A stretch of DNA of 64,000 nucleotides from Micavibrio aeruginosavorus (lineage in GTDB: Bacteria; Pseudomonadota; Alphaproteobacteria; Micavibrionales; Micavibrionaceae). The DNA is taken from the NCBI GenBank assembly GCA_016432265.1, contig CP066681.1:584342-648341 (forward strand). The letters run 5' to 3'. The position numbers and the translations under genes were made by a program. Shown here piece by piece: positions 40,254 through 53,729 of this stretch (positions are counted from its first letter, which is position 1; each line of letters starts with the position of its first letter). Below the pieces are notes generated by a model, which worked only from the letters and a program-made list of their open reading frames with translations, was not told the DNA's origin and searched no databases.

Positions 40254-40507
40254 CCTATTTTTTTCCTTTCCCAGATTTTCCTGATCTGTGGCAGCCCGAG
40301 CGTAGAAAGCAGGTAGCCCATAACCGGCACCAGCGCCGCCAAGGGCCATTCAGGTGAAGGTGTGACGTAAACAAACAAGATACTGGCGCAAATGTAAGTA
40401 ATGACCGCAATTGAAATTCTGCGCGTCGCGCTTGTTTCCCACGCCTTATCTACCGCAACGCGGGCGTTGCGTGTCTCTATGGCAGTTATTCTATCTTCCA
40501 GGGGCAT
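40250..40507 (-). CDS. Small membrane protein of unknown function
   Basis: An 85-residue protein with a charged N-terminal helix and two membrane segments (about residues 31-48 and 53-69), ending in a basic tail (KIWERKKIG). It overlaps the tsaD 3' end by 17 bases and gpsA by 4, so it is part of the same transcript. A GTG 4 codons upstream is an alternative start. No family recognised. Confidence 0.7.
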
Positions 40508-41561
40508 TTGTCGTTTCACTCATTTCAGCCAGGGGCCAGCGCGGGCGTGCCGCTACGTTGAGCGCATGCGTATGCCCCAGACGCAGATGCTCGATCCCCG
40601 CCCAGGCAATCATCGCCGCGTTATCAGAGCACAGCTTGACCGGCGGGGCAACCAGCCGGAAACCGTTGTCTTGTGCAAGAGATGTCAGGGCCGCGCGGAT
40701 GCGCAGATTGGCGGCGACGCCGCCCGCAAGAACCAGCGCCGGTCGGCCAGTCTGGTAAGCGGCTTTGAATTTTGCAAGGGCGCGGCTCAGGCGATCTTGC
40801 AAAACATCACAGATCGCCTCCTGAAAGGAACAGGCCAGATCGGCCACGTCGTCGCGCCGCAAATCGCCAGGCGGCAATTTGTCGACATGGGCGCGCACGG
40901 CGGTCTTCAGGCCGGAGAATGAAAAATCCATTTCCGGGCGTCCCTTCATTGGCCGGGGCAATTCGAAACGGGTGCAGGCCGCTTGCGGATTGCGGCATTG
41001 CGCGGCGGTTTGCTCAAGGTGCGGGCCGCCGGGATAGGGCAGGCCCATCAGCTTGGCCGACTTGTCGAAGCATTCGCCCAGCGCGTCGTCGACGGTGCCG
41101 CCCCAGTGACGGTAGACGCTGACATTTTCCGCCACCAAAATCTGGGTATGCCCGCCCGAGACCAGCAACAAAAGATAGGGGAAATCGAGATCGTCGGTCA
41201 GGCGTGGCGTCAGGGCATGCGCCTCAAGATGGTTGATCGCTATAAAGGGCAGGTGACGCGCGGCTGCGATCGCCTTCGCGGCCATCATCCCCACCATCAC
41301 GCCGCCGATCAAACCGGGGCCGCAGGTGGCAGCCACGCCATTCAGATCGCCAAACCCGATCCCGGCGTCATCCATGGCACCCTTGATCAGCGTATCCAGA
41401 TGGTCAAGATGCGCGCGCGCCGCTACTTCTGGCACCACGCCGCCAAAGGCGCGATGTTCTTCCAGTTGACTTAAAACCAGATTGGACATAACAGTGCGAT
41501 CGTCGCGGATCACGGCGGCGGCGGTTTCATCGCAACTGGTCTCAATACCCAAGACGATCAT
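40491..41561 (-). CDS. tsaD: tRNA N6-threonylcarbamoyladenosine synthase subunit TsaD
   Basis: Catalyses transfer of the threonylcarbamoyl group to A37 of tRNAs reading ANN codons. The 356-residue protein begins with the ATPase-fold motif [13 protein letters not shown] and holds the metal-binding HLDHLD and the NHLEAH motif, SGGHTQIL, and late [10 protein letters not shown]. It leads the tsaD-small protein-gpsA-EVE operon. Normally in alphaproteobacteria hemC lies divergently next to it; here a 12 kb block separates them. A second partial copy of its start lies at 52289. Confidence 0.97.
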
Positions 41562-41685
41562 CAGCAGATTTATAAGCTGTGCGCGTCGCCAAGGGAAGGG
41601 GGGAGAAGGCCAGCCGTAATCTAACCCTGAATTTTAAATCGACCAGACTTCGCCCGGACAGAAAATAATTGAATAATTAAATGAT

Positions 41686-43008
41686 TTATCTCCGAGCACA
41701 GCGAACCCGGTACAAATAGTATTTATTGCTGTTGGTCTGGGAGCCGTCACTGAACCTCTGCCTCCACGCAGGGCTGATATCGTACTCTGAGGACGACCAG
41801 TACTGGCCACCGCTTGTCTCGAATCCTGTGATCAGCGGATCAGGAGCATTATTGGCGGGGGTAGCGTCGACAAGATTGTCGTAGATAAGATCAAGTTCGC
41901 GGGCGGAGGGCAGATACCAGTCCGTTTTCCCATGGACATTGAGATTGTCACATTCCCGTGCGGCAACGTGATCCTGCGTCCCGGCGTTTGTGCTCGCATC
42001 GGTTGCCACCAGCGTTGCCGTATTTGTTTCGCCGGAAGCATCGCAACCTGCCGCAGAAGCGCAGTTGACCAAGGGTGTATCAACCCACCCGGTATCTCCG
42101 GCATTCCATGGCAGGGAAGACGCTGTTCCGGTGCAGGCAGCCCCATCCCATGTCTGGCCCAGATCGCACCGCGCGATATACATTGGCACGTTGCCATCAG
42201 GCGATAGACCGGCATAAACAGATCCGTCGGAACATATTGTACCCACGGGGGAGCAGCCGGATATGCCGGTTGTGATTGCCCAATCGCTACTCACAGGGCC
42301 GATGCTGGCGGTAATGGTGAAGGTCGTTCCCGAACTGGCCGAACTGGTAGCGCGAAGCTGGATATAGTTTCCTTGCATCGTCTGTGCCGTGTTCGATGCT
42401 GTCCATGTCTGGATTTCCGAGGAACAGGCGGCATCGCTGCAAACCCTGTATTGAGGGTTGCCCCCCGTGCCGCTGACGCCTACCGTGGCGCTGCATCCGG
42501 CATCCATCCCCGTAATCTCCACGATATTGGATGTTACAAGGGTTGACCCTGCCAGTTCATCCTGATCCGTGAAGACCGGGAACGCTGGGGCATTGTCGCA
42601 AGTGTTAACCGCTATTTTTTGCCAGCTTGCGCCATCACACATTTCAATGGTTCCGTTGGCGCTGCTCCAGCGCAGGCCGCCTTCCCGGTCGGCGTTGCAT
42701 ACAAGGCCCGTACTGCCGACGATGGCCTCGCCACCCACATGAAGCGGTGCTTTCGGGGCGGCCTGCTTCACGCCGAGATTGCCGCTGGTATCCCACTCTG
42801 TGACGCGCCTCCAAACGCTGCCGTCACAAACCAGAAGCAATCCGGCACCGGGATTCTCGGGGCCGCCTGCATGCAAAAAGCGGTTCGCTCCGGTGCAGGC
42901 ATCACCAGGCTGCGTTTCCTGAGCCAAAGCGCGCGATGATGGGGTGCTCCAAAGCATGAAGGCCAATGCGGCAATCAATATCTTGATCTTGACTCTGGAA
43001 TTATTCAT
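41686..43008 (-). CDS. Secreted DUF1566 (C-type-lectin-fold) protein
   Basis: A 440-residue exported protein. The ATG at 43008 opens a signal peptide ending near SSRALAQ. Two short repeats follow, in which a Cys-Asp-Gly-x-x-Trp motif recurs (VCDGSVWRRV, MCDGASWQKI). A Thr/Ser-rich middle part comes next, then the C-terminal DUF1566 domain (about 310-440) with KTDWYLPSARELDLIY and YWSSSEY, the lectin-like fold used for display and binding. Many cysteines suggest disulfides. The frame is open 71 codons further upstream without signal character. It is divergent from a LysR regulator that may control it. Confidence 0.8.
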   Translation of the reverse strand: MNNSRVKIKILIAALAFMLWSTPSSRALAQETQPGDACTGANRFLHAGGPENPGAGLLLVCDGSVWRRVTEWDTSGNLGVKQAAPKAPLHVGGEAIVGSTGLVCNADREGGLRWSSANGTIEMCDGASWQKIAVNTCDNAPAFPVFTDQDELAGSTLVTSNIVEITGMDAGCSATVGVSGTGGNPQYRVCSDAACSSEIQTWTASNTAQTMQGNYIQLRATSSASSGTTFTITASIGPVSSDWAITTGISGCSPVGTICSDGSVYAGLSPDGNVPMYIARCDLGQTWDGAACTGTASSLPWNAGDTGWVDTPLVNCASAAGCDASGETNTATLVATDASTNAGTQDHVAARECDNLNVHGKTDWYLPSARELDLIYDNLVDATPANNAPDPLITGFETSGGQYWSSSEYDISPAWRQRFSDGSQTNSNKYYLYRVRCARR

Positions 43009-43283
43009 GAGAGCCCTTTCAATAAAAGGGAGATATGCGCTATCCATCAAAGCGCCGCCATGATTAAGGTTGCCATAGACAGGCATTCCTTCACTGTCAA
43101 TCAGGGCTATTTTCGCTTTCCGTTCCAACATAGGCAGTTCCTTTGCGTTTCTAAGAAAAAACGTTCTTTTTGATGCAGAAACGGTGTTCCCGTCACGCAT
43201 GCCAATCATAATGCCGTGCACTTATTAGAAAAAATTATATTTTCTTATTGAATATATAACCTATACCTTATCAAATAAGAGGG

Positions 43284-44204
43284 ATGAGAGAATCTGTTCG
43301 TCATATTTCGTTGAATATGTTGGTTGTGCTCGAAGCGCTATGCGTTCACGGGAGTACGGTGATGGTGGCCAGGCAACTGAGTATTACGCAACCGGCCGTC
43401 TCACAGTGCCTGAAAAGGCTGCGCGAGATCGCAGATGATCCGCTCTTCATCAGGACGCCAAAGGGTCTTAAGCCTACGCCAAAATGTCTGGCGATCAGGG
43501 CGCAGGCCGCCGCCGCGCTGGATATTTGCGAGAATATTGTCACAAACAAGGCCGTTTCGTTCGATCCCGCGACAGCAGAGCGTCGCTTTTCCGTGTCGAT
43601 ACCGGAACAGAAAACGCCTTATTTATTCTCTGTGCTGGGTATTTTGCTAGAAAAACAATACCCCCGCATAAGAGCGGATATTGTGAGATTATCGGAGGAT
43701 GAGGGGATGTCCGCGCTCAGCGCAGGAGCACTCGACTTGTTTGTGGGGTTCTCCGGTAAAAGGGACGATGAAAAATACCGGTCAGAAAAAATCACCTCGT
43801 TTGAATGCAAGGTCATTTGTTCGAAAATGTGTTCGTTATATCCGAATGGAACCCTCACCAGATCGCAGTATCTGACAAGGCCTCATGTGAAAGTCGCTCA
43901 GGGGCTGGATGTGACATTGCTTGATAATGCTCTTACGTCATTAGGTTTGATACAAAAAACTCTTTTGCTTGTTCCCGACAAGGAATCGGCCTATGAACTG
44001 GTGCGGCAAAAAGACTGCCTGTTTATCATCGACCGGCAAACGGCGCAAATGCTTTGCCGCCAGCATGACGATCTGAAAATATTGCAAGAAAAATTCTCGC
44101 TTCCGTCAATCGATATTTATCAGGTCTGGGATGCGCGTTGCGACGCCGACCCGGCAAATATATGGCTGAGAAGCTACATTAAAAAGAAATGCGCCCCGAG
44201 TTAG
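43284..44204 (+). CDS. LysR-family transcriptional regulator
   Basis: A 306-residue LysR-type regulator. The winged helix-turn-helix (about residues 9-67) includes ALCVHGSTVMVARQLSITQP and AVSQCLKRLREIADDPLF. An effector-binding domain follows. It is divergent from the DUF1566 gene, the usual LysR arrangement, and so probably acts on the AT-rich gap between them. The inducer is unknown. Confidence 0.92.
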   Translation: MRESVRHISLNMLVVLEALCVHGSTVMVARQLSITQPAVSQCLKRLREIADDPLFIRTPKGLKPTPKCLAIRAQAAAALDICENIVTNKAVSFDPATAERRFSVSIPEQKTPYLFSVLGILLEKQYPRIRADIVRLSEDEGMSALSAGALDLFVGFSGKRDDEKYRSEKITSFECKVICSKMCSLYPNGTLTRSQYLTRPHVKVAQGLDVTLLDNALTSLGLIQKTLLLVPDKESAYELVRQKDCLFIIDRQTAQMLCRQHDDLKILQEKFSLPSIDIYQVWDARCDADPANIWLRSYIKKKCAPS

Positions 44205-44334
44205 CCTGCTGCCCCATGCTCGAAAAAATGGTTCAGAAATTATCCCGGCGACACGGAAAGAGAAGAGTTACTGTTATTTTATGACCGGAGTTTTGGTTAA
44301 TTCTCTGAAGTCCGCGTGTTAACCAGTACCCGCA

Positions 44335-44530
44335 GCATAACGCCCCTTGCGCCCCGGCCGATAAAGAAAAAATCCGGCGCTGCGCCAGCGCAGCCTGCCT
44401 TACACCGGGATTGCCGCTGATATCTCACTTTGTGACGCGCGTGGGCTGATAGGGCGTATACCAACATTTTCCGAGCGCACATGCATACTGATCTCCCTGC
44501 CAAGGGAAGGGGGCACGCTGAGTTATACTG
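44335..44530 (-). pseudogene. Composite of gene fragments (DUF1566-type paralogue and mnmC 3' end)
   Basis: Read on the minus strand, about 44530-44395 gives a coherent but broken frame, with QYACALGKCWYTPYQPTRVT, a stop, then DISGNPGVRQA. This aligns with RVTEWDTSGNLGVKQA inside the neighbouring DUF1566 protein, so it is a remnant of a paralogue. It is joined at about 44390 to a stretch (44385-44335) that closely matches the last codons of the MnmC-like gene (46574-46525). Neither fragment is functional. The remainder of the 44205-44541 gap shows nothing else. Confidence 0.65.
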
Positions 44531-44541
44531 CCTGAGAAAAG

Positions 44542-45867
44542 TCAGGCGATTTTCTTTAGTTCAGTCATGAAAGCTCCCATTTTATCAAGCAGCGTATGAA
44601 CGCGCCGGATAGCTTGCTGCGAAAGGCCGCTGGTGGCTTGCATCACGTCGTTTGCGGCTTGCTCGACCTGTGCCATGCTTTGATTGATTTCGCGTACATT
44701 CGCTGCGACGCTATGCGTTCCTTCAGAGGCATGCTCCGCACTGGAGGCGATCTCCCTCGATGCTGCGCTTTGTTCTTCGATTGCCGCAGCGACAGTAGCC
44801 GCCGTTTGATCGATATTGGTAATAACGGAGCCTATGGAAATAAACGCCTGTACAACCTTGCTTGTCGCGCCTTGTATGTCGCTGACCAGATCGGCGATTT
44901 CTTCTGTTGCTTTGCTGGTTTGTCCGGCGAGCCCCTTAACCTCGCTGGCGACCACTGAAAAACCCTTACCTGCTTCCCCGGCTCTGGCTGCTTCGATAGT
45001 TGCATTCAGCGCCAACAGATTGGTCTGCCCGGCTATCGCTTCGATCATGTTGACAACTTTGCCGATTTTATCGGCCATCTGCGATAGCTCAGAAATCATC
45101 TCTCTTGCGGTCGCAGATTCTTCAACGGCCGTCTTTGCGTATGATGATGTTTTACTCATCTGCTGCGAAATTTCGGCTATGCAACTCGACATTTGTTCCG
45201 CCGCCGCCGATATCGTTTGCACGCTCATCGAAGCGCCATCAGAACTGCGCATCGCGGCATCGGCTCCTTGCGCCGCCACGCAGACAGAATTTTGCATGGT
45301 GTTTGCGCTGTTTTCCAATGTCCGGGTCGTGGATTGTATCTGCTGGACGACATCGGTTAGCGATAAATCAAGATCGGCGGCCACATTCGCAAAGCCATTC
45401 ATTTTATGCTCAACGTCTTGCGCGGCGCTATTGATGATGCGGGCCCCATTCAGCAGATTACCGTGCATTCCCGCTTCCAGGATACGCCGGAAGTACTGGT
45501 TGCGGCTTACATGCTCCATGGCGGCGGTTGCCTCTCGAATAAAAGAGTCTACGGCATCGACCATTTCGTTCAGCGCCCATTGAAACTCGCCGAAATACCC
45601 CTTCTCTGTAATGTTAGTCAGTCTTGCTTCAAAGTCTCCTTTAGCCAAGGCGCCCACTACAAGGGTCATACGTTTGATTTCATTTTCTGATTTCTTAAGG
45701 TTGAAGAACAGCAAGCCCAGGCTGATAGCGATAAAACCCATGCCGGATACGACGGGCCAGAGTTTCGCCGCATCGGTGAAAAGCAGAAAACCGGCAATCG
45801 CCAGCGTCGTCGCGAAGGCAATACCGTTAAACAGCTTTGCGCTGGAGAGCGAAGATAAATTCATCAT
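44542..45867 (-). CDS. Methyl-accepting chemotaxis protein (cytoplasmic sensing type)
   Basis: A 441-residue receptor with two adjacent N-terminal membrane helices (about residues 12-30 and 34-52), no periplasmic domain, and a HAMP-like region (about 55-110), followed by a signalling coiled coil with the tip [18 protein letters not shown]. The layout is that of Aer-type receptors lacking their PAS domain. A PAS protein is encoded just upstream and the two genes overlap by 41 bases, so together they look like a split aerotaxis receptor. Confidence 0.92.
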
Positions 45868-46378
45868 AACTCATGCCTTTCTGCCGAATTATATCTTCCA
45901 GCATCTCAAAACCATTGTTCATTCCATCCTTGGCGTTTTTATAGCGGTTTTCTTCGTCGAGGAGCTGTTTGTATAAAGGGATAATCGTGGCGTCCAACAC
46001 ATGGCGACCCGGGACGCGGCGGTTGGAGTGGTATCCGATAATTTTTCCGTTTTTATCATAAGAGGGCGTTACGTGCGCCAGAACCCAGTAATTGTCGCCG
46101 TTTTTGGACATGTTGTTGACGTAAGCGAAAATCTCATGGCCCGTTCCAATGCGATCCCAAAGCAGCTTGAAAACGCTCCTTGGCATTTCCGGGTGGCGAA
46201 TCAAGCTGTGGGGCCGGCCTAAAAGCTCGCGTTCGCTATAACCCGAGAGGTTGATAAAAACACGGTTTACGTAGGTAAGGCGTCCTTTGAGATCTGTTTT
46301 GCTGACAATGACTTCACCTTCGCGAAAAAAACGTTCAATCCCGGTGGGTACGATTTTGTTTTTTGCGGTCTCAGTCAT
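45827..46378 (-). CDS. PAS-domain protein (Aer-like sensor half)
   Basis: A 183-residue protein with one PAS domain (about residues 25-120) of the Aer type: [42 protein letters not shown], and [12 protein letters not shown]. In Aer this domain binds FAD and senses redox. It lacks membrane helices and its 3' end overlaps the following chemoreceptor by 41 bases. The ATG at 46378 is preferred over one 4 codons upstream. The inferred role is to sense redox for that receptor. Confidence 0.85.
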
Positions 46379-46524
46379 AAACAGCCTCACTTATGCGGAC
46401 TCTATCACTGTACCGGAAAATATTAATAATATGATTAAAAAACGGAGATAACGAAAATTTATAATTTTCCCTGAGGCTCAAAGCGCCCGCAGGCCACCGA
46501 GCGCAGACGGGGCCAGCCGGAAGA

Positions 46525-47670
46525 TTATATCCGCCCCTTGCGCTCCAGCCGATAAAGAAAACGATCCGGTGCAACGGCTTTTCGCGTTTCTTCGGAAAAG
46601 TGCGGCGCATGCCCGAGGATTTGATCTGAAATCATTCTTGCAGATGCCAGCGAGGAGATAATCCCGTATGAACCGTGCGCCGTCGACAAATACAGATTAT
46701 CGTAGAAAACCGGTTTTTGCGTCGTCCATTCCCCCTTGCGCGGGACAAGGCCGGTTATAGCCACGCGATCTTTTGAGGCTGTCCGCAGCGCCGCCGCAGC
46801 GCGGCTGGCCTTCATCCCTTCGGCAATAGAGGGAAGGTTTTCCTTCAGCCGCGCAAGAATCCTCTCGTTATCGCTTTCGCGCAGGGAAAGGTCGGTATCG
46901 TTCTGCTGGAACGTCGAACCTATGACGTGCAGGCCGTCCACCGGTTTCGAGATATGGCCCCCGTAGTTTATGTTGCAGGCCAGATTCGCGCTGTTTCCGT
47001 TTGCGGGGCATACGATCATCTGCCCGCGCACATTCTGCAAAGGCAGCCATTCGCACCCTGAAAAATACCGCGCGGCGAACCCGCAAGCGATGATGACGGA
47101 GTCAAAGGGCTCCCCGTTCACGCGCCAGCCGCTGCCTCTTTGCTCAAGGTTTCTCACGGGCGCCGAAAGGCGAACGTCGATATCGCGCGCCTGAGCGGCG
47201 CACAGCAAGGCGGGCGAGACAAAGCCCGAATGGGGAAGGAACAAGGCGTCATGACGCAGCGTTATGCGTGAAACCGCGCTGGCCTCCTGCGCGGATACGA
47301 TCCTGACATCGTCCCCGCTCAGGCGCTGGTTCTCGATCATGGCCTGATAATAGGCGCGCTCGTCCTCGCTCTTGATCAGGTAGAGCGTGCCGCAAGGGTC
47401 GAAACCTATATCGGTTCTTTCCTGTATTCCCGAGAAAATCTGAAAAGCCAGTTTAAAGGCCGCGAAGAAATAATCGCCGACCCCGTTGCGCAGCTTTTGA
47501 AACCGCGGGTCGTAGATGCCTTGAATATTCCCCGATGCCCCCGTCGCCAGCCGCTCCCCCGCCTCAAAAATGACGGGTGTGACAGAATGCTGTCCGGCGT
47601 CGTTTTTCAGACTGTAAGCGCAGGCGGTGGCGGCAAGCCCCCCGCCGATGATCGCGATTGCTTTGCTCAT
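46525..47670 (-). CDS. MnmC-like FAD-dependent oxidoreductase domain (stand-alone)
   Basis: A 381-residue flavoprotein of the DAO family. The N-terminal FAD motif is IAIIGGGLAATACAYSL. ASGNIQGIYDPRF and the late TAHGSYGIISSLASARMI followed by PDRFLYRLER match the C-terminal half of MnmC, which trims carboxymethylaminomethyl-uridine at the tRNA wobble base. The methyltransferase half of MnmC is absent, so it is a single-domain version. The ATG at 47670 is placed before the FAD motif. A copy of its last codons lies at 44335. Confidence 0.82.
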   Translation of the reverse strand: MSKAIAIIGGGLAATACAYSLKNDAGQHSVTPVIFEAGERLATGASGNIQGIYDPRFQKLRNGVGDYFFAAFKLAFQIFSGIQERTDIGFDPCGTLYLIKSEDERAYYQAMIENQRLSGDDVRIVSAQEASAVSRITLRHDALFLPHSGFVSPALLCAAQARDIDVRLSAPVRNLEQRGSGWRVNGEPFDSVIIACGFAARYFSGCEWLPLQNVRGQMIVCPANGNSANLACNINYGGHISKPVDGLHVIGSTFQQNDTDLSLRESDNERILARLKENLPSIAEGMKASRAAAALRTASKDRVAITGLVPRKGEWTTQKPVFYDNLYLSTAHGSYGIISSLASARMISDQILGHAPHFSEETRKAVAPDRFLYRLERKGRI

Positions 47671-47824
47671 TGGTTCGGCTCCAGCCGGCTTTATAATCGG
47701 TGTCGGAGACAAGATCAACGGCGGCCGCATCTGCGCGCCTTGCTGCCATTTTGATTATTAGGGTTGCATAATATACTACCTTGTGTTGTAATGCGGGGCG
47801 TTGCTGAAGAAGGGGAGAAACGCC

Positions 47825-48397
47825 ATGGGCGGCTATAACGGGAAAAATCGTCACGTCTGGATCGGCACCGCGTTGCTTCTTTTGCTGGCTTCCGGCCTTT
47901 TTTTATACCAGCGGCACAATGTATCCGGTGAAAAGGCGGCGCTCTCCCTTCTCGGATTTTCCGGCAGCATTGAAAGCGGCCAGATCGTCAGCGGCAACAT
48001 CCCGAATACAAGCACGGTCGTCAGGCTGAAAAGGCCCGACGGCACAAGCGGCGGCGGCGGTCAGGGCGCCTTGCACGGGTTTTATAGGTATCTGAACGCG
48101 ACGGCGGGAACCTGGACTATGGAGGTCACGCGCACCACCGGCACGGCGGGGGGCGATTACGAGGCCACGATGATCCTGATCCCCGGGGCAACCTCCCAGT
48201 CCGGCGGCCCCAATGGTAGTAAGGGGCGTCTGGATTCCATCGCGTTCAGGAACGGCTATACGCAGAGTTTAAGCTACACCAGCGCCGGCGAATTAAGCAG
48301 CGTGACCGGTTCCTATGGCCGTTCGCTGGGGTTGGCGTCTTCAGGGTCAAGAAAAATTCTTGATGGGTGTGAATTTGTGCTGGTCTACCATAGCTAA
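47825..48397 (+). CDS. Membrane-anchored or secreted protein of unknown function
   Basis: A 190-residue protein with an N-terminal hydrophobic segment (about residues 13-29) after a basic start, so exported or anchored. The mature part is rich in Gly, Ser and Thr and looks like beta structure (ATAGTWTMEVTRTTGTAGG, RNGYTQSLSYTSAGELSS). The ATG at 47825 has a GGGGAG site. No family recognised. It is divergent from the mnmC-like gene and precedes the lipoprotein cassettes. Confidence 0.65.
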   Translation: MGGYNGKNRHVWIGTALLLLLASGLFLYQRHNVSGEKAALSLLGFSGSIESGQIVSGNIPNTSTVVRLKRPDGTSGGGGQGALHGFYRYLNATAGTWTMEVTRTTGTAGGDYEATMILIPGATSQSGGPNGSKGRLDSIAFRNGYTQSLSYTSAGELSSVTGSYGRSLGLASSGSRKILDGCEFVLVYHS

Positions 48398-48447
48398 AAC
48401 TATACTTATGGACAGGGGCGGGGATTGGAAAAAATTATATACGTGAA

Positions 48448-48626
48448 CCACCAGAAGGTTTGCCCGGTTTTTGGGGCAAGCCTTTTTTTGTTTTCTGCCA
48501 TCCTGCCGGAGTAATCATTCATGATATTCGTAAGTAAAAAGTCCCTCAAGAAAGTTCTGTGCACTCTCGCGCTGATTATCGCGATCGGATTTGTGACCGC
48601 GTGCAGACAGGCGGAAGCTGAAGAAT
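48448..48626 (+). repeat. Shared lipoprotein leader, copy 1
   Basis: First of three copies of a leader made of an intrinsic terminator, the ribosome site CCGGAG, and the codons for a lipoprotein signal peptide. This copy and copy 3 are nearly identical through the lipobox Cys and a few codons beyond (to GAAGAAT). Similarity then falls abruptly to that of distant paralogues. Confidence 0.9.
48455..48489 (+). terminator. Intrinsic terminator in leader copy 1
   Basis: GGTTTGCCC pairs with GGGCAAGCC (one G-T pair) around an 8-base loop, followed by seven T. It ends transcription arriving from the left just before the lipoprotein gene. Confidence 0.85.
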
Positions 48627-49804
48627 ATAAATACGTTACGCCGGGATTTGTAGATGCCATTAAAGGCGTAAATAAAGATGCTTTCTTTTCGCTCTCTGAA
48701 GCTGAAATCTTAGAGAAGGCAAAAAGTAGCGTGGTGCGCTCAGAGATAGAGCAAAAGAAGGCTGACATGTCTGTCTTATCTTCTCACTACAGAACAATTG
48801 GTGAAGGGCTGTGTGAGCCTATCACTCCAACTTATCATGGCCTAATGCAGAAAAAATATAAGAATAGTGACGCATACGGTATTGATTCTGAAATAACAAA
48901 GATTATGCGGGAGGCCGGTGCCTACACCCTTCCTATTCTAGTAAAGAAAGGATGGTTCAAGGCTTCCTACTCGGTTATGCCGGGTGGTGCTTTGAATGCC
49001 GAAGGATTTAAGGCGGCTTATAAGAATGATGCTGGCCCAATTGTCAGATCTTTTGGTGATATTGAGATTCAGGATGAACGGACAGTTATTATTTCCGGAC
49101 GCGCTGATGAAAACGGGGGGAACTATAAATATTTCCAAGCATTTAATACTTTCGCCCGCGATCATTTTTTTCAAATCAAAGATGTAAGCTACGAATTTGA
49201 TTTTGTACGACCTTATCTTTTCGTTCTTGATAGGGATGCTACCAATATTAATCAGGGAGCCGTGTATTACTATGTCCTATTACCTTATTCAGTTTCGGGT
49301 AATGACCAACATACGGTTGTGACGTATCAGTACAAAGAAGATAATAAGCTAAGGTGCTATGCCGGTTCAATTGCGAATGTGTGGGCTACGGGTACCCGCA
49401 ATCTGGCAGGAAGGTTTGAGACACATGCGGCTTCACCTTTAACTGAACCTGAACCACTTACCATCCCCCATCACCCAGAGTACGGGGCGACACAATATCC
49501 TGACGAAAAAGGTCGACTCATCAAGAACACATCCTACAAAGTTGAAGCGTCAGAAATGGCAGAGCCTTCTTTACGTTGTTGGTTAAATTCCATGAGTTTC
49601 TTATCTGATATTAAGGATAAAGAGTGTAACAGCCTCGCTTACGCTGATGAATATATGCACATGCTGAATAGGAATGTTTGCGTCAAGCCTAATGAAATAT
49701 TACCGGCCCCTGTTTTGTCTTATCCCTATGAGGCTAAGCCTCAGCAAGGATACCCATTTGATCTGCAATTTGTTTTTACTTGGGGAACACGCTGCAATCC
49801 TTGA
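48521..49804 (+). CDS. Large lipoprotein of unknown family, cassette 1
   Basis: A 427-residue lipoprotein: signal peptide with lipobox FVTAC (Cys at residue 28), then a soluble domain of about 400 residues. It is homologous to the cassette 3 lipoprotein along most of its length. Shared elements include GLCEPI, an MREAGAYTLPI segment, EFDFVRPYLFVLD, YYVLLPYSVSG, PLTIPHHPEY, a YADEYMHMLNRNVC segment, and a final RCNP. Several cysteines are conserved. No known family was recognised. Composition is AT-rich compared with the chromosomal genes on either side. Confidence 0.8.
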   Translation: MIFVSKKSLKKVLCTLALIIAIGFVTACRQAEAEEYKYVTPGFVDAIKGVNKDAFFSLSEAEILEKAKSSVVRSEIEQKKADMSVLSSHYRTIGEGLCEPITPTYHGLMQKKYKNSDAYGIDSEITKIMREAGAYTLPILVKKGWFKASYSVMPGGALNAEGFKAAYKNDAGPIVRSFGDIEIQDERTVIISGRADENGGNYKYFQAFNTFARDHFFQIKDVSYEFDFVRPYLFVLDRDATNINQGAVYYYVLLPYSVSGNDQHTVVTYQYKEDNKLRCYAGSIANVWATGTRNLAGRFETHAASPLTEPEPLTIPHHPEYGATQYPDEKGRLIKNTSYKVEASEMAEPSLRCWLNSMSFLSDIKDKECNSLAYADEYMHMLNRNVCVKPNEILPAPVLSYPYEAKPQQGYPFDLQFVFTWGTRCNP

Positions 49805-49833
49805 ATATTTAAAGATAGTATGGAGTTATTAAA

Positions 49834-49986
49834 ATGACAAACAATTATTATACAAATGTAGATCTGTATTCTTACTGGTCTTCACCCATTTGTTGGGCCA
49901 CCAGAAGGTTTGCCCGGTTTTTGGGGCAAGCCTTTTTTGTTTTCTGCCATCCTGCCGGAGTAATCGTTCATGATATTCGTAAGTAA
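49834..49986 (+). pseudogene. Truncated gene start after cassette 1
   Basis: An ATG after a GGAG site begins MTNNYYTNVDLYSYW, then the frame runs into leader copy 2 and ends inside it. The start resembles MTDNFYT after cassette 3, so it is probably the beginning of a second gene of the cassette whose body was replaced. Confidence 0.5.
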
Positions 49987-50038
49987 AAAGCCCCTCAACA
50001 AAGTTCTGTGCGCACTCGCGCTGGTTATGGTGATCGGG
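49898..50038 (+). repeat. Shared lipoprotein leader, copy 2
   Basis: Second copy of the leader. It keeps CCACCAGAAGG plus the complete terminator (49905-49937), the ribosome site, and the first codons of the signal peptide. It is nearly identical to copy 3 until codon 17 or so, after which the signal peptide core differs. Confidence 0.9.
49905..49937 (+). terminator. Intrinsic terminator in leader copy 2
   Basis: Same GGTTTGCCC/GGGCAAGCC stem as in copy 1, followed by six T. Confidence 0.85.
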
Positions 50039-50446
50039 TTGATCGGTGCATGCAAAAAAGACGCAAGTGCCGAGGATAAACTTACGGTTATCCAGGCAGA
50101 TATCGATATTCCCGTGAAGTGCCAAAAAGAAAAAACTTTGGATGCGTTTTCTTGTTTAAAGGAAGAAGTTGCGAAATTAGATAGCGAACTCGATTCTATT
50201 ATAGCATCTGTGATTTTAGATCTCCATAGTCCCGAAGGCGCTGAGGCTAACACTGAGATATCGGAACGTATGCAGTTGTCTCAGGAGAGTTGGAGGAAAT
50301 ATAGAGACCTATTTTGTTTGGATGATTATTATACCAAGGCGGCTGTTCATCCGCCTTCGCAAAGCTACCGTATACAACGCTGTAGATATAAAAAATCCTA
50401 CGAACGACTCATTGAACTGAAAAATAAATATAATAAAGGGGAATAA
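49970..50446 (+). CDS. LprI/DUF1311-like lipoprotein, cassette 2
   Basis: A 158-residue lipoprotein with the shared leader signal peptide and lipobox LIGAC. The mature part is unlike the neighbouring cassettes and resembles the LprI/DUF1311 family, some members of which inhibit lysozyme: a Cys before LDSELDSII, then QLSQESWRKYRDLFC and RIQRCRYKKSYERLIELKN, with four cysteines placed as in that family. A periplasmic or surface inhibitor role is possible but inferred. Confidence 0.72.
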   Translation: MIFVSKKPLNKVLCALALVMVIGLIGACKKDASAEDKLTVIQADIDIPVKCQKEKTLDAFSCLKEEVAKLDSELDSIIASVILDLHSPEGAEANTEISERMQLSQESWRKYRDLFCLDDYYTKAAVHPPSQSYRIQRCRYKKSYERLIELKNKYNKGE

Positions 50447-50447
50447 A

Positions 50448-50618
50448 ATGGTCGATTTTACATGGCACGATATTGATGAAGATGTCTTGACGACCGTCGA
50501 AGATACCCTTGAAAACATGGCGACGACCGATCTGACCGCGCTCAGATCGGCGATGCTGCCGGTTTTTGGGGCAAGCCTTTTTTGTTTTCTGCCATCCTGC
50601 CGGAGTAATCATTCATGA
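50448..50618 (+). pseudogene. Truncated gene start after cassette 2
   Basis: An ATG two bases after the cassette 2 stop, behind GGGG, begins MVDFTWHDIDEDVLTTVEDT and keeps a protein-like acidic composition for about 35 codons. It then enters leader copy 3, where the frame stops. It is probably the N-terminus of a lost gene. Confidence 0.5.
50527..50550. repeat. Perfect 9-base inverted repeat at cassette junction
   Basis: CCGATCTGA and TCAGATCGG flank a 6-base loop, directly before leader copy 3. No T-run follows at once, so it is not a typical terminator. Confidence 0.6.
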
Positions 50619-50720
50619 TATTCGTAAGTAAAAAGCCCCTCAACAAAGTTCTGTGCGCACTCGCGCTGATTATCGCGATCGGATTTGTGACCGCGTGCAG
50701 ACAGGCGGAAGCTGAAGAAT
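50558..50720 (+). repeat. Shared lipoprotein leader, copy 3 (left arm of terminator lost)
   Basis: Third leader copy. Similarity to the others begins at GCCGG inside the terminator loop, so the left stem arm is missing and the hairpin cannot form. The right arm, ribosome site and signal peptide are intact. The breakpoint marks a recombination joint. Confidence 0.85.
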
Positions 50721-51943
50721 TCAAATTTGTATCGGCTGAGTTTCAGGATGCTCTTCATAATGTAACTATTGATTACTTCCTTGCACCTCCCAAACCGGAA
50801 CCTAAAGATCTTAAGCTTTTCTATTTAGAGGATAAGTATGAGGAATATAGAAATCCCAAATTGGCTGAAGCAGAAGCCGCTTATGAACATTATCCTAAAC
50901 TAGGGGACAAGCTTTGCGAGCCGATTGCAAAAGCTTATGAAGAAATGCTGAAGGTTCCCCTTAAACGCACTGAGGCAGCTTATCAATTTGACTCCGAACT
51001 GTTGAAGGTTATGCGTTCTTCCGGGGCTTATGTTCTTCCTATCTCCTCCGGGCGTGGCAAGGTTGATGGGATCTTTACAGTTAAAGATGCTGAAAAATTA
51101 AAACAGGAATATTTTAAGTCTTTTGGTGAAGCAGAAAAACTGGCAAACGCTCCCAAGTATGAAGCTGAGAATAAAGTTCTATTTCTTGTTCCTTCGACCG
51201 ATGAGGGTGAGGGGGACTACAGAAAATATATAGAATTCTATAATGCTGTAAACCGATATGGCATTCAGGGAACTGAAAAGTTTGATTTTGATTTTAAATT
51301 TGTGCGTAGCTTTTTGTTTGTTCTAGGTGATACGGCTTCATTCAATGGGGAACGCATTTATTTTTATGTTGAACTGCCCTACAAAATTAGCGGCACCCGT
51401 GTCGGAGAAATTGATGAACTGCAATATGTGCCGGGTTCTGATCTTGGGGATCATGTTAAATGCTACACATATTCTAAAACAGGGCTCTATTATAGCGGGA
51501 TAAGCAGTAAGAAGAAATTTATAGACAAGGGTATGGCCGATGCCACTGTCTTAGATCTTGAACCCTTATCCATCCCTCTTCATTCAGAATATGCCAGAGA
51601 TGAAATTCGTCGCGATGATGGACAAAAAGGCTTCAGGAAAAATTACTACACGCTGGAACGATCGGAAGTATCTGAGCAATCATTGGAATGCTGGATGCTT
51701 GCTGTGGGGTTTGCATCCGGTGATATCAAGAAATGTCAAAATTCCGGATATGCCGATGAATATCTAAAAATGCTCAACTCTAATATCTGCGCCTGGAAAG
51801 ACAGGACTGTCGAAACACCGAAAGTAAATTATCCCCTTACCGTCGATGCGGGCTTACATAGAGCAGATTACATGAGACTTAATAATTTATCTTACAACAA
51901 TCGCTGTAATCCCGAGACATTACCAGAGAATAGGAAAGACTAA
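50615..51943 (+). CDS. Large lipoprotein of unknown family, cassette 3
   Basis: A 442-residue lipoprotein, paralogue of cassette 1. Signal peptide and lipobox FVTAC are almost identical to it; the body is diverged but shares KLCEPIAKAY, MRSSGAYVLPI, DFKFVRSFLFVL, YFYVELPYKISG, PLSIPLHSEY, YADEYLKMLNSNIC and RCNP near the end. Lys, Glu and Tyr are abundant. Function unknown. The start codon overlaps the end of the preceding stub. Confidence 0.8.
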   Translation: MIFVSKKPLNKVLCALALIIAIGFVTACRQAEAEEFKFVSAEFQDALHNVTIDYFLAPPKPEPKDLKLFYLEDKYEEYRNPKLAEAEAAYEHYPKLGDKLCEPIAKAYEEMLKVPLKRTEAAYQFDSELLKVMRSSGAYVLPISSGRGKVDGIFTVKDAEKLKQEYFKSFGEAEKLANAPKYEAENKVLFLVPSTDEGEGDYRKYIEFYNAVNRYGIQGTEKFDFDFKFVRSFLFVLGDTASFNGERIYFYVELPYKISGTRVGEIDELQYVPGSDLGDHVKCYTYSKTGLYYSGISSKKKFIDKGMADATVLDLEPLSIPLHSEYARDEIRRDDGQKGFRKNYYTLERSEVSEQSLECWMLAVGFASGDIKKCQNSGYADEYLKMLNSNICAWKDRTVETPKVNYPLTVDAGLHRADYMRLNNLSYNNRCNPETLPENRKD

Positions 51944-51946
51944 GTC

Positions 51947-52042
51947 ATGACTGATAATTTCTACACAACGACCACTATTGAAGATGTTCGTGCAAGATTA
52001 GAATCTGATATTCAAAGCATACTCACGCCATTTCTTGATTGA
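51947..52042 (+). pseudogene. Short or truncated gene after cassette 3
   Basis: A 31-codon frame starts 3 bases after the lipoprotein stop with MTDNFYTTTTIEDVRARLES and looks like an amphipathic N-terminal helix before it stops. It matches the stub after cassette 1 at MT(D/N)N(F/Y)YT. Either a tiny protein or the remnant of a longer partner. The following 52043-52156 shows nothing recognisable. Confidence 0.45.
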
Positions 52043-52156
52043 TATTGCCCTTGCCCTATTCAGCCCGTAAGTACCAACCTTATCGTCAAGGATGGGATCA
52101 CGATCATTGCGAATTCTGTAATAAAAAATTTCTGTGGGGGGTGCTGATGAGGATTC

Positions 52157-52372
52157 ATGATCTCTAAAATCCTCCCCCGCTTGCTCTGCCTTCTCCTATT
52201 CCTTCCACTTGCCCTGAGTGTTTCGGTCAGGCCTGTTTTCTCCGCCATCCCCTCCCGGCTTGCCTATAATACCTATGACTCTAACTCGGCGGTTTCATCA
52301 CAACTGGTTTCAATGCCTAAAACAATCATCAGCAGCTTTATAGGCCTGCCGCGCTGCCAGGGGAAAGGTTAG
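52157..52372 (+). pseudogene. Truncated exported-protein gene running into tsaD duplicate
   Basis: A GAGG site precedes an ATG that opens a convincing signal peptide (MISKILPRLLCLLLFLPLAL, cleavage near VFSA). About 15 codons later the frame enters the antisense of the duplicated tsaD start and ends. The mature protein has been lost, so this is a 5' fragment cut at the island boundary. Confidence 0.6.
52289..52372 (-). repeat. Duplicate of the tsaD 5' end
   Basis: A direct repeat of the tsaD start and leader: 52289-52343 matches 41521-41575 at 48 of 55 positions by my count, and weaker similarity continues to the right. On the minus strand it reads [14 protein letters not shown], then diverges and stops four codons later. 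It is in the same orientation as the intact tsaD. The copies bracket the accessory block. Confidence 0.85.
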
Positions 52373-52380
52373 CGGGGGAA

Positions 52381-53223
52381 TTATGGATGATCCGGGCGCG
52401 GTACTGCTGCCGATTGCCGATACACTGCGGAAGGCCAGGTGACCATCTCTTGGCGCAACGCGGTGCCGGCACGGCGCCAGGCTGTTCTGGGTTGCAGGGT
52501 GAATATGTAGCAATTCACGTCATTGCCGGTCTGCTGGTACAGGAACGGGTTGATATCTTCATACGCGATATCCAGCATGTCGACAGGTAAAAGTCCGGCA
52601 TGATTGCGCAAATCGTTTCGTGCGCCTATGGCCTTTAGCGCTTTCACCGGCCGAATATCACGATGGAGCATCGCAATGTGCAGGGCGGTATTGCCGCAGC
52701 CATCTTGTATATCAGGGTGTGCGCCATTGCGCAGGAGCGCCTGCGTGGCGCGTCCCATCAGGGTTTTGCGCCGCAGTTCCCGGACGCTGCAGGGGCGTCC
52801 GTCCGATCCGATGTTTGAAACATGGTTCCAGCCCTTTTTGACCGAGAGAATGAGAGCGGTATTTCTAAGATAGGGGCCGTGCTGCCAGCCCAGACGATCC
52901 TGATAGTCGAGATAGCCCTGAAGCTTCAGATGCTCGGTGTGCCAGCGTGGATCTACGTCCCACTGATAGCGATCCTGTCGGTTGAGATCGATTCCGAAAC
53001 GACCACTGTTATCGGCCAGCCAGATCGCGGCGTCGATTCCGGAATGGGCAATCAGACAGAGCAGACCCTCCTGCGCATCGAATGCGTTCATGTCTACGCG
53101 GCCTGATTCGGCGAGGGCAATAAATTTGGCCGTTTGCTCGTTCGCACCGGCGAAGCGCAATTGCTCTTCCGGACTGGGGCGTTTTTCACGATGGCGGGTG
53201 AATGCAGCGGATAATTTTTTCAT
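52381..53223 (-). CDS. Ankyrin-repeat protein
   Basis: A 280-residue soluble protein with ankyrin repeats near residues 175-240 (LLRNGAHPDIQDGCGNTALH, IGARNDLRNHAGLLPVDML) and a weaker repeat-like part before. Ankyrin repeats bind other proteins. The ATG at 53223 with a GAGG site is preferred over a GTG 10 codons upstream. It lies just outside the tsaD duplicate. Confidence 0.72.
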   Translation of the reverse strand: MKKLSAAFTRHREKRPSPEEQLRFAGANEQTAKFIALAESGRVDMNAFDAQEGLLCLIAHSGIDAAIWLADNSGRFGIDLNRQDRYQWDVDPRWHTEHLKLQGYLDYQDRLGWQHGPYLRNTALILSVKKGWNHVSNIGSDGRPCSVRELRRKTLMGRATQALLRNGAHPDIQDGCGNTALHIAMLHRDIRPVKALKAIGARNDLRNHAGLLPVDMLDIAYEDINPFLYQQTGNDVNCYIFTLQPRTAWRRAGTALRQEMVTWPSAVYRQSAAVPRPDHP

Positions 53224-53342
53224 CGAGAGCCTCAGGTCATGGTTGGCGGCCACTGTAGAGGGGTTATTAAATTATGTCAAATATAACACCGTTATCACGG
53301 TTCCCTTTTATGGGCGCAGCGGCTATAGTGAGGCTTAAGAGT

Positions 53343-53729
53343 ATGGAAACTATAAACGTGGCACAAACGCCAGTCGTAACAGGGATGGTTAACAATACGC
53401 GCATGCTGGGCCTGAGGAAGGCCATGGCGGCGTCGTCTCTTGTCTTTTTAATGCGTTACTCCGGCGATGTGAGGCGGCTGGCGGTTTTCCTGACTGTGGC
53501 GGTGATCGTGCCACCACCTGCGGGCATCGTATCGGGATTGCTGGCGGTGGGGTTCTACGAGGCGGCCAAGGTTTCGGGCCGGGTCTACCGCGATGTCATG
53601 GGGTTGCCGCGGCCTGAGGACTTTGCAGCGCTGGCTGAAGTGAACCGCCGTTACAAGGAGGCACACCGTGAAATCATGCCGTTGCCTCGCCCCGAGAAAA
53701 CGGTTTTCCCTGCGATGGAAATGCGCTAA
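53343..53729 (+). CDS. Hypothetical protein with hydrophobic centre
   Basis: A 128-residue protein with a hydrophobic segment near residues 45-75 (LAVFLTVAVIVPPPAGIVSG) and a polar tail holding two similar LPRPE elements (GLPRPEDF and PLPRPEKT). The start could also be the ATG at 53274, 23 codons upstream; the one at 53343 has a GAGG upstream. No family recognised. It ends 45 bases before hemC. Confidence 0.55.
   Translation: METINVAQTPVVTGMVNNTRMLGLRKAMAASSLVFLMRYSGDVRRLAVFLTVAVIVPPPAGIVSGLLAVGFYEAAKVSGRVYRDVMGLPRPEDFAALAEVNRRYKEAHREIMPLPRPEKTVFPAMEMR

Follow-up and report, generated by a model that had tools for sequence, protein, structure and literature searches.

A near-identical 5' leader shared by three tandem lipoprotein genes within an insertion at tsaD in Micavibrio aeruginosavorus

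In a 64,000-nucleotide stretch of the M. aeruginosavorus genome (hereafter the window), we identified three head-to-tail lipoprotein genes that have in common a 5' leader of 127-169 nt, with 93-96% pairwise identity, ahead of bodies that differ. The genes occupy the right-hand portion of what the alignments indicate to be a 10.7-kb insertion at the tsaD 5' end, and we regard them as a genuine, clearly delimited case in which recombination has led to the sharing of a leader within a private insertion. The window derives from a 2.46-Mb single-contig genome with an estimated completeness of 89%, and carries an alphaproteobacterial tmRNA. According to the reading that we favor, to which we assign a probability of about 0.4, the three products would be accessory envelope lipoproteins with an inhibitor- or immunity-type role, their genes having been put together through recombination in the leader and the partner genes having decayed. 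The coordinates of the features are listed in Table 1.

Table 1. Features of the lipoprotein locus and the borders of the insertion (window coordinates)
Feature	Coordinates	Strand	Remarks
Working tsaD	40491-41561	-	
Left 82-bp repeat copy	41519..41600	-	5' end of working tsaD plus about 39 bp upstream; 80% to 52287-52368, 85% to G001
Private 10.7-kb insertion	41601..52286	.	between tsaD and ank-hemC; from G001 alignment
Leader 1	48448..48604	+	hairpin and T tract 48453-48489, CCGGAG, signal peptide to lipobox Cys
Lipoprotein unit 1	48521..49804	+	427 aa, unrecognised family
Stub 1	49834..49897	+	MTNNYYTNVDLYSYW...; ORF start with ribosome-binding site, enters leader 2 after 21 codons
Leader 2	49898..50040	+	hairpin intact; identity gone near codon 19
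Lipoprotein unit 2	49970..50446	+	158 aa, LprI domain PF07007
Stub 2	50448..50558	+	MVDFTWHDIDEDVLTTVEDTLENMATTDLTALRSAML / MVDFTWHDIDEDVLTTVEDTLENMATTDLTALRSAM...; ORF start with ribosome-binding site, cut by leader 3 after 37 codons
Leader 3	50559..50726	+	starts inside hairpin loop, no terminator; matches unit 1 through codon 35
Lipoprotein unit 3	50615..51943	+	442 aa, unit 1 paralogue
Stub 3	51947..52042	+	MTDNFYTTTTIEDVRARLESDIQSILTPFLD; short ORF with ribosome-binding site, stop after 31 codons
Debris	52043..52286	+	WDHDHCEFC-motif fragment and signal-peptide start (MISKILPRLLCLLLFLPLALS...) running into tsaD fragment
Right 82-bp repeat copy	52287..52368	-	tsaD 5' end, non-functional remnant; 90% to G001

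A common leader ahead of divergent bodies

Pairwise comparisons delimited the leader to blocks of 169 nt between units 1 and 3 (48464-48632 versus 50559-50726, 96% identity), 144 nt between units 1 and 2 (48448-48591 versus 49898-50040, 93%) and 127 nt between units 2 and 3 (49914-50040 versus 50559-50685, 96%). These blocks bear out an earlier, sequence-only reading of the window, which had noticed consecutive lipoprotein genes with a near-identical leader containing CCGGAG and a signal peptide. Both elements are present, CCGGAG lying shortly 5' of the ATG and the signal peptide beginning MIFVSKK. The same reading had described the bodies as two distant paralogues and one LprI-like protein, in agreement with the 37% overall identity of units 1 and 3 (34% across the mature part) and with the Pfam LprI domain of unit 2 (E 1.5e-7, 32.2 bits against a curated gathering threshold of 22). 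With 40-43% G+C, compared with about 57% in the flanks, the lipoprotein bodies are AT-rich.

As had also been noted, the shared identity stops sharply, after the lipobox or earlier. For units 1 and 3 it ends 7 residues beyond the lipobox Cys, while unit 2 departs from the leader within the signal peptide. Across codons 1-35, units 1 and 3 are identical at 101 of 105 nucleotides (96%), as opposed to 48% from codon 36 onward. The third base is the same at all 32 identical residues in codons 1-35, but at only 55 of 122 identical residues thereafter, and the binomial probability of the leader identity arising at the rate of the body is about 3e-27. Because identity drops from 96% to 48% at codon 36, we regard these data as strong evidence that the bodies of units 1 and 3 diverged anciently and that the leader was dispersed recently, by recombination or conversion. 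This contrast also supports the proposal that the leader served as a recombination substrate joined to differing bodies. A mosaic origin of leader 3, unit 2-like and then unit 1-like, was considered and set aside, as three changes private to unit 1 explain the pattern about equally well.

In units 1 and 2, the leader contains a 13-bp hairpin followed by a T tract (-21.3 kcal/mol, z -3.3 to -3.5). The idea that each unit has its own terminator thus holds for the hairpins of these two units but not for unit 3, where homology starts within the hairpin loop (CCGGTTTTTGGGG), the 5' arm is lost (z +0.43) and no terminator was called. Only about 34 nt separate the end of the T tract from the ATG, which leaves no room for a separate promoter behind the terminator; we read the hairpin as part of the 5' region of the gene that follows it. 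In a consensus scan, a promoter-like match 5' of unit 1, at 48409-48438, is weak evidence for a transcription start that would fall just before the hairpin. Since unit 3 lacks the hairpin, no such terminator stands between units 2 and 3, and a single transcript could cover both.

Units 1 and 3 matched no significant Pfam family, and a PADLOC analysis of the lipoproteins returned nothing. AlphaFold2 models of the two paralogues had a mean pLDDT of 33.5 and gave no fold assignment for this 400-residue family, and a sequence search against solved structures produced a chance-level match only. One additional family member was detected among 142 genomes of the order, in G023 (a genome sampled from the same taxonomic family), so that the protein family was found in two genomes of the order. 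The G023 member is a lone AT-rich gene between prmC and prfA (neighbours named from sequence); it lies at L009 8453-9810 and is followed by the inverted repeat GGGACAAATTAA...TTAATTCAATCTGTCCC. The family was not found in G052, a congener of G023, among 385 sampled genomes of the class, or among plasmids and phages, and short peptide patterns, which may miss members, had no match in genome_contigs or IMG/VR.

Five body cysteines are invariant in all three members of the family, as would be expected of proteins in an oxidising compartment. An Asp after the lipobox Cys directs retention in the inner membrane. Here, the residues following this Cys are Arg and Lys, which suggest no such retention, and outer-membrane anchoring of the lipoproteins is therefore predicted to be likely.

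The insertion at tsaD and the gene remnants within it

Contig C76 of G001, a genome of the same genus, aligns with window positions 61856-52287 and then directly with 41600-40521. Copies of the tsaD 5' end border the skipped segment, the right copy being nearer than the left to the G001 sequence, and in 27 of 29 other family loci hemC is upstream of and divergent from tsaD. From the skip in the G001 alignment, together with the 82-bp tsaD repeat and the tsaD/hemC order in the family, we identify the intervening 10.7 kb as an insertion at the tsaD 5' end that is absent at this site in G001. Its recognisable proteins comprise an Lcl_C-domain protein, a LysR regulator, an MCP, a PAS protein, an FAD oxidoreductase and the LprI protein. 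The first of these (511 aa), which has an Lcl C-terminal domain (PF07603), is encoded on the minus strand at 41686-43221, at the left end. Compared with an integrase-borne island, the insertion has the border direct repeat of a target gene end (82 bp, 80%), but neither an integrase nor another site-specific recombinase was detected among the ORFs scanned within it.

In both genomes of the genus, the interval from the insertion site to hemC holds an ankyrin-repeat gene and a gene encoding a 151-aa product (52381-53729). Given these extra genes, and since hemC is close to tsaD in most other family genomes, the gap between tsaD and hemC appears to have taken up insertions repeatedly.

Each lipoprotein gene is followed by an ORF start with a ribosome-binding site that is broken off after 21-37 codons (stubs 1-3). 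Searched against 58 genomes, the peptides of stubs 2 and 3 returned only self-matches at a meaningful E-value. Next to the units, which are followed by short stubs only, we recognised neither a toxin nor an effector gene. Within the debris, a start-less frame at 52043-52160 encodes KYQPYRQGWDHDHCEFCNKKF and appears to be what is left of a zinc-binding protein. The WDHDHCEFC fragment had no Pfam or phage match; among plasmids, a hypothetical protein was its single, weak match (E 0.04). A 27-bp block, TGGTCTTCACCCATTTGTTGGGCCACC, spans the junction between stub 1 and leader 2 (49876-49902), with most of its length in the stub. Its single exact second copy is in G001 (C92:62-88), near a contig end and about 300 bp from an apparent tRNA 3' end. 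The block may be the footprint of a mobile element.

Possible origin and role of the array

In the reading favored here, three lipoprotein genes of mixed origin would have been given one 5' segment, consisting of the hairpin, ribosome-binding site and lipoprotein signal peptide, through homologous recombination, by either tandem insertion or conversion. Because a truncated ORF start follows each unit, each may represent the left part of a two-gene module composed of a lipoprotein and the following gene, the latter having presumably been severed when the next leader-bearing unit joined. The products, predicted to be envelope lipoproteins and probably located on the outer membrane, may provide self-protection of the inhibitor or immunity type, through an LprI-type protein in unit 2 and members of an unrecognised family in the other two units, and would have been retained after loss of the partner genes. 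The array had originally been likened to an immunity or surface-antigen cassette system. Of these two terms, inhibitor or immunity is plausible because of the LprI body of unit 2, but antigen switching found no support. Precedents for such a role include TilA, a tandem lipoprotein with an immunity function (PMC10730906), and the LprI-domain immunity protein SED_RS06230 (PMC8867033). The protein ScwA, however, has an LprI domain and does not inhibit lysozyme (PMC7933661); not all LprI proteins do so, and the domain alone does not prove inhibition.

Ordinary duplication and decay is a credible, if tentative, alternative. On this account, unequal crossing-over and truncation in an AT-rich island with lipoprotein genes would have produced three genes whose 5' ends had been converted and which serve no joint function. 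The stubs, the broken hairpin of unit 3, the gene debris and the presence of the units in one genome only would all fit such a history. Conversely, the three lipoprotein frames have stayed open over 158-442 codons while the neighbouring fragments are broken, and the bodies retain shared cysteines and motifs, which speaks against this account.

Were the lipoproteins envelope protection factors, as the favored reading proposes, recombination within a common 5' leader would have put together an accessory set for immunity, in a lineage with a probable relationship to bacterial predators. A concrete route to testing the immunity reading is offered by the truncated partner ORFs, and the 400-residue family, which is not recognised by Pfam, was found in just two genomes of the order. 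A more far-reaching version, which we consider unlikely, is that of a leader-trap: a resident segment of hairpin, ribosome-binding site and lipoprotein signal would act as a homology landing site that repeatedly captures protective lipoprotein bodies from passing DNA and cuts off the accompanying gene, and by which a predator would build a store of envelope immunity.

It is more doubtful still that the locus is a variable surface lipoprotein array that switches by leader recombination, in the manner of mycoplasma vpma/vsp, even though a conserved 5' region and signal peptide do precede differing bodies. All units have a single orientation, one body is an unrelated LprI protein, and active switching is without anatomical support because the scanned ORFs of the insertion include no recombinase family and neither inverted nor silent copies were observed. 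A search for the leader across the lineage had been set beforehand as the test of a lineage-wide variable cassette system, and in the genomes available its outcome does not support such a system. The leader was found only here, with no further DNA copies in the organism's own genome or in 94 relatives (the leftover matches, of about 17-40 nt, were chance-like) and no match in IMG/VR; the insertion itself is missing from G001.

We also consider it very improbable that selection has kept the leader identical as a regulatory RNA element, i.e., an attenuator, instead of its having spread by recombination. The position of the hairpin, immediately 5' of the ribosome-binding site, and its good folding in units 1 and 2 would suit an attenuator, but the hairpin has been lost in unit 3, and the identity extends over silent positions of the signal peptide and ends abruptly. 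An assembly artefact of a repeat, to which the completeness estimate of only 89% despite one contig might point, is hardly credible, as the copies are not the same, their bodies and junctions differ as well, and the flanks are collinear with G001.

Comparison with known systems

With regard to the insertion, SXT/R391-type elements integrate in the 5' end of prfC, and here too the 5' end of a conserved gene is present at both borders. The target in this case is tsaD, however, and no integrase or transfer gene was recognised in the 10.7 kb. Integron cassettes were rejected as a model for the array, in which the repeat sits at the 5' end and encodes a signal peptide.

The array resembles the lpl/tilA (DUF576) genes of Staphylococcus aureus vSa-alpha in being composed of tandem lipoprotein genes on a genomic island. 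In vSa-alpha, a conserved region has been proposed to permit shuffling, and at least TilA is an immunity lipoprotein, the associated toxin being the lipase TslA (PMC10730906, PMC4470592). Those genes all belong to a single family whose conserved core is intragenic, whereas here the conserved part is the 5' leader and an unrelated LprI body is included. In addition, units 1 and 3 have no DUF576 domain, as is implied by the absence of any significant Pfam family, and no adjacent toxin gene was seen.

The mycoplasma vpma/vsp/vsa loci (PMC2268961) likewise have a conserved 5' region ahead of differing lipoprotein bodies. They differ in having a neighbouring tyrosine recombinase, one promoter and inversions (PMC2268961), none of which was found here; for a site-specific recombinase near the array, this refers to the ORFs scanned in the insertion. 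Finally, unit 2 is similar to SED_RS06230 of Salmonella Dublin (PMC8867033) in being an exported LprI-domain protein of comparable size. The Salmonella protein is a soluble Sec/SPI product encoded beside an intact effector, a LysM hydrolase (PMC8867033), whereas unit 2 is a predicted lipoprotein that adjoins a truncated ORF.
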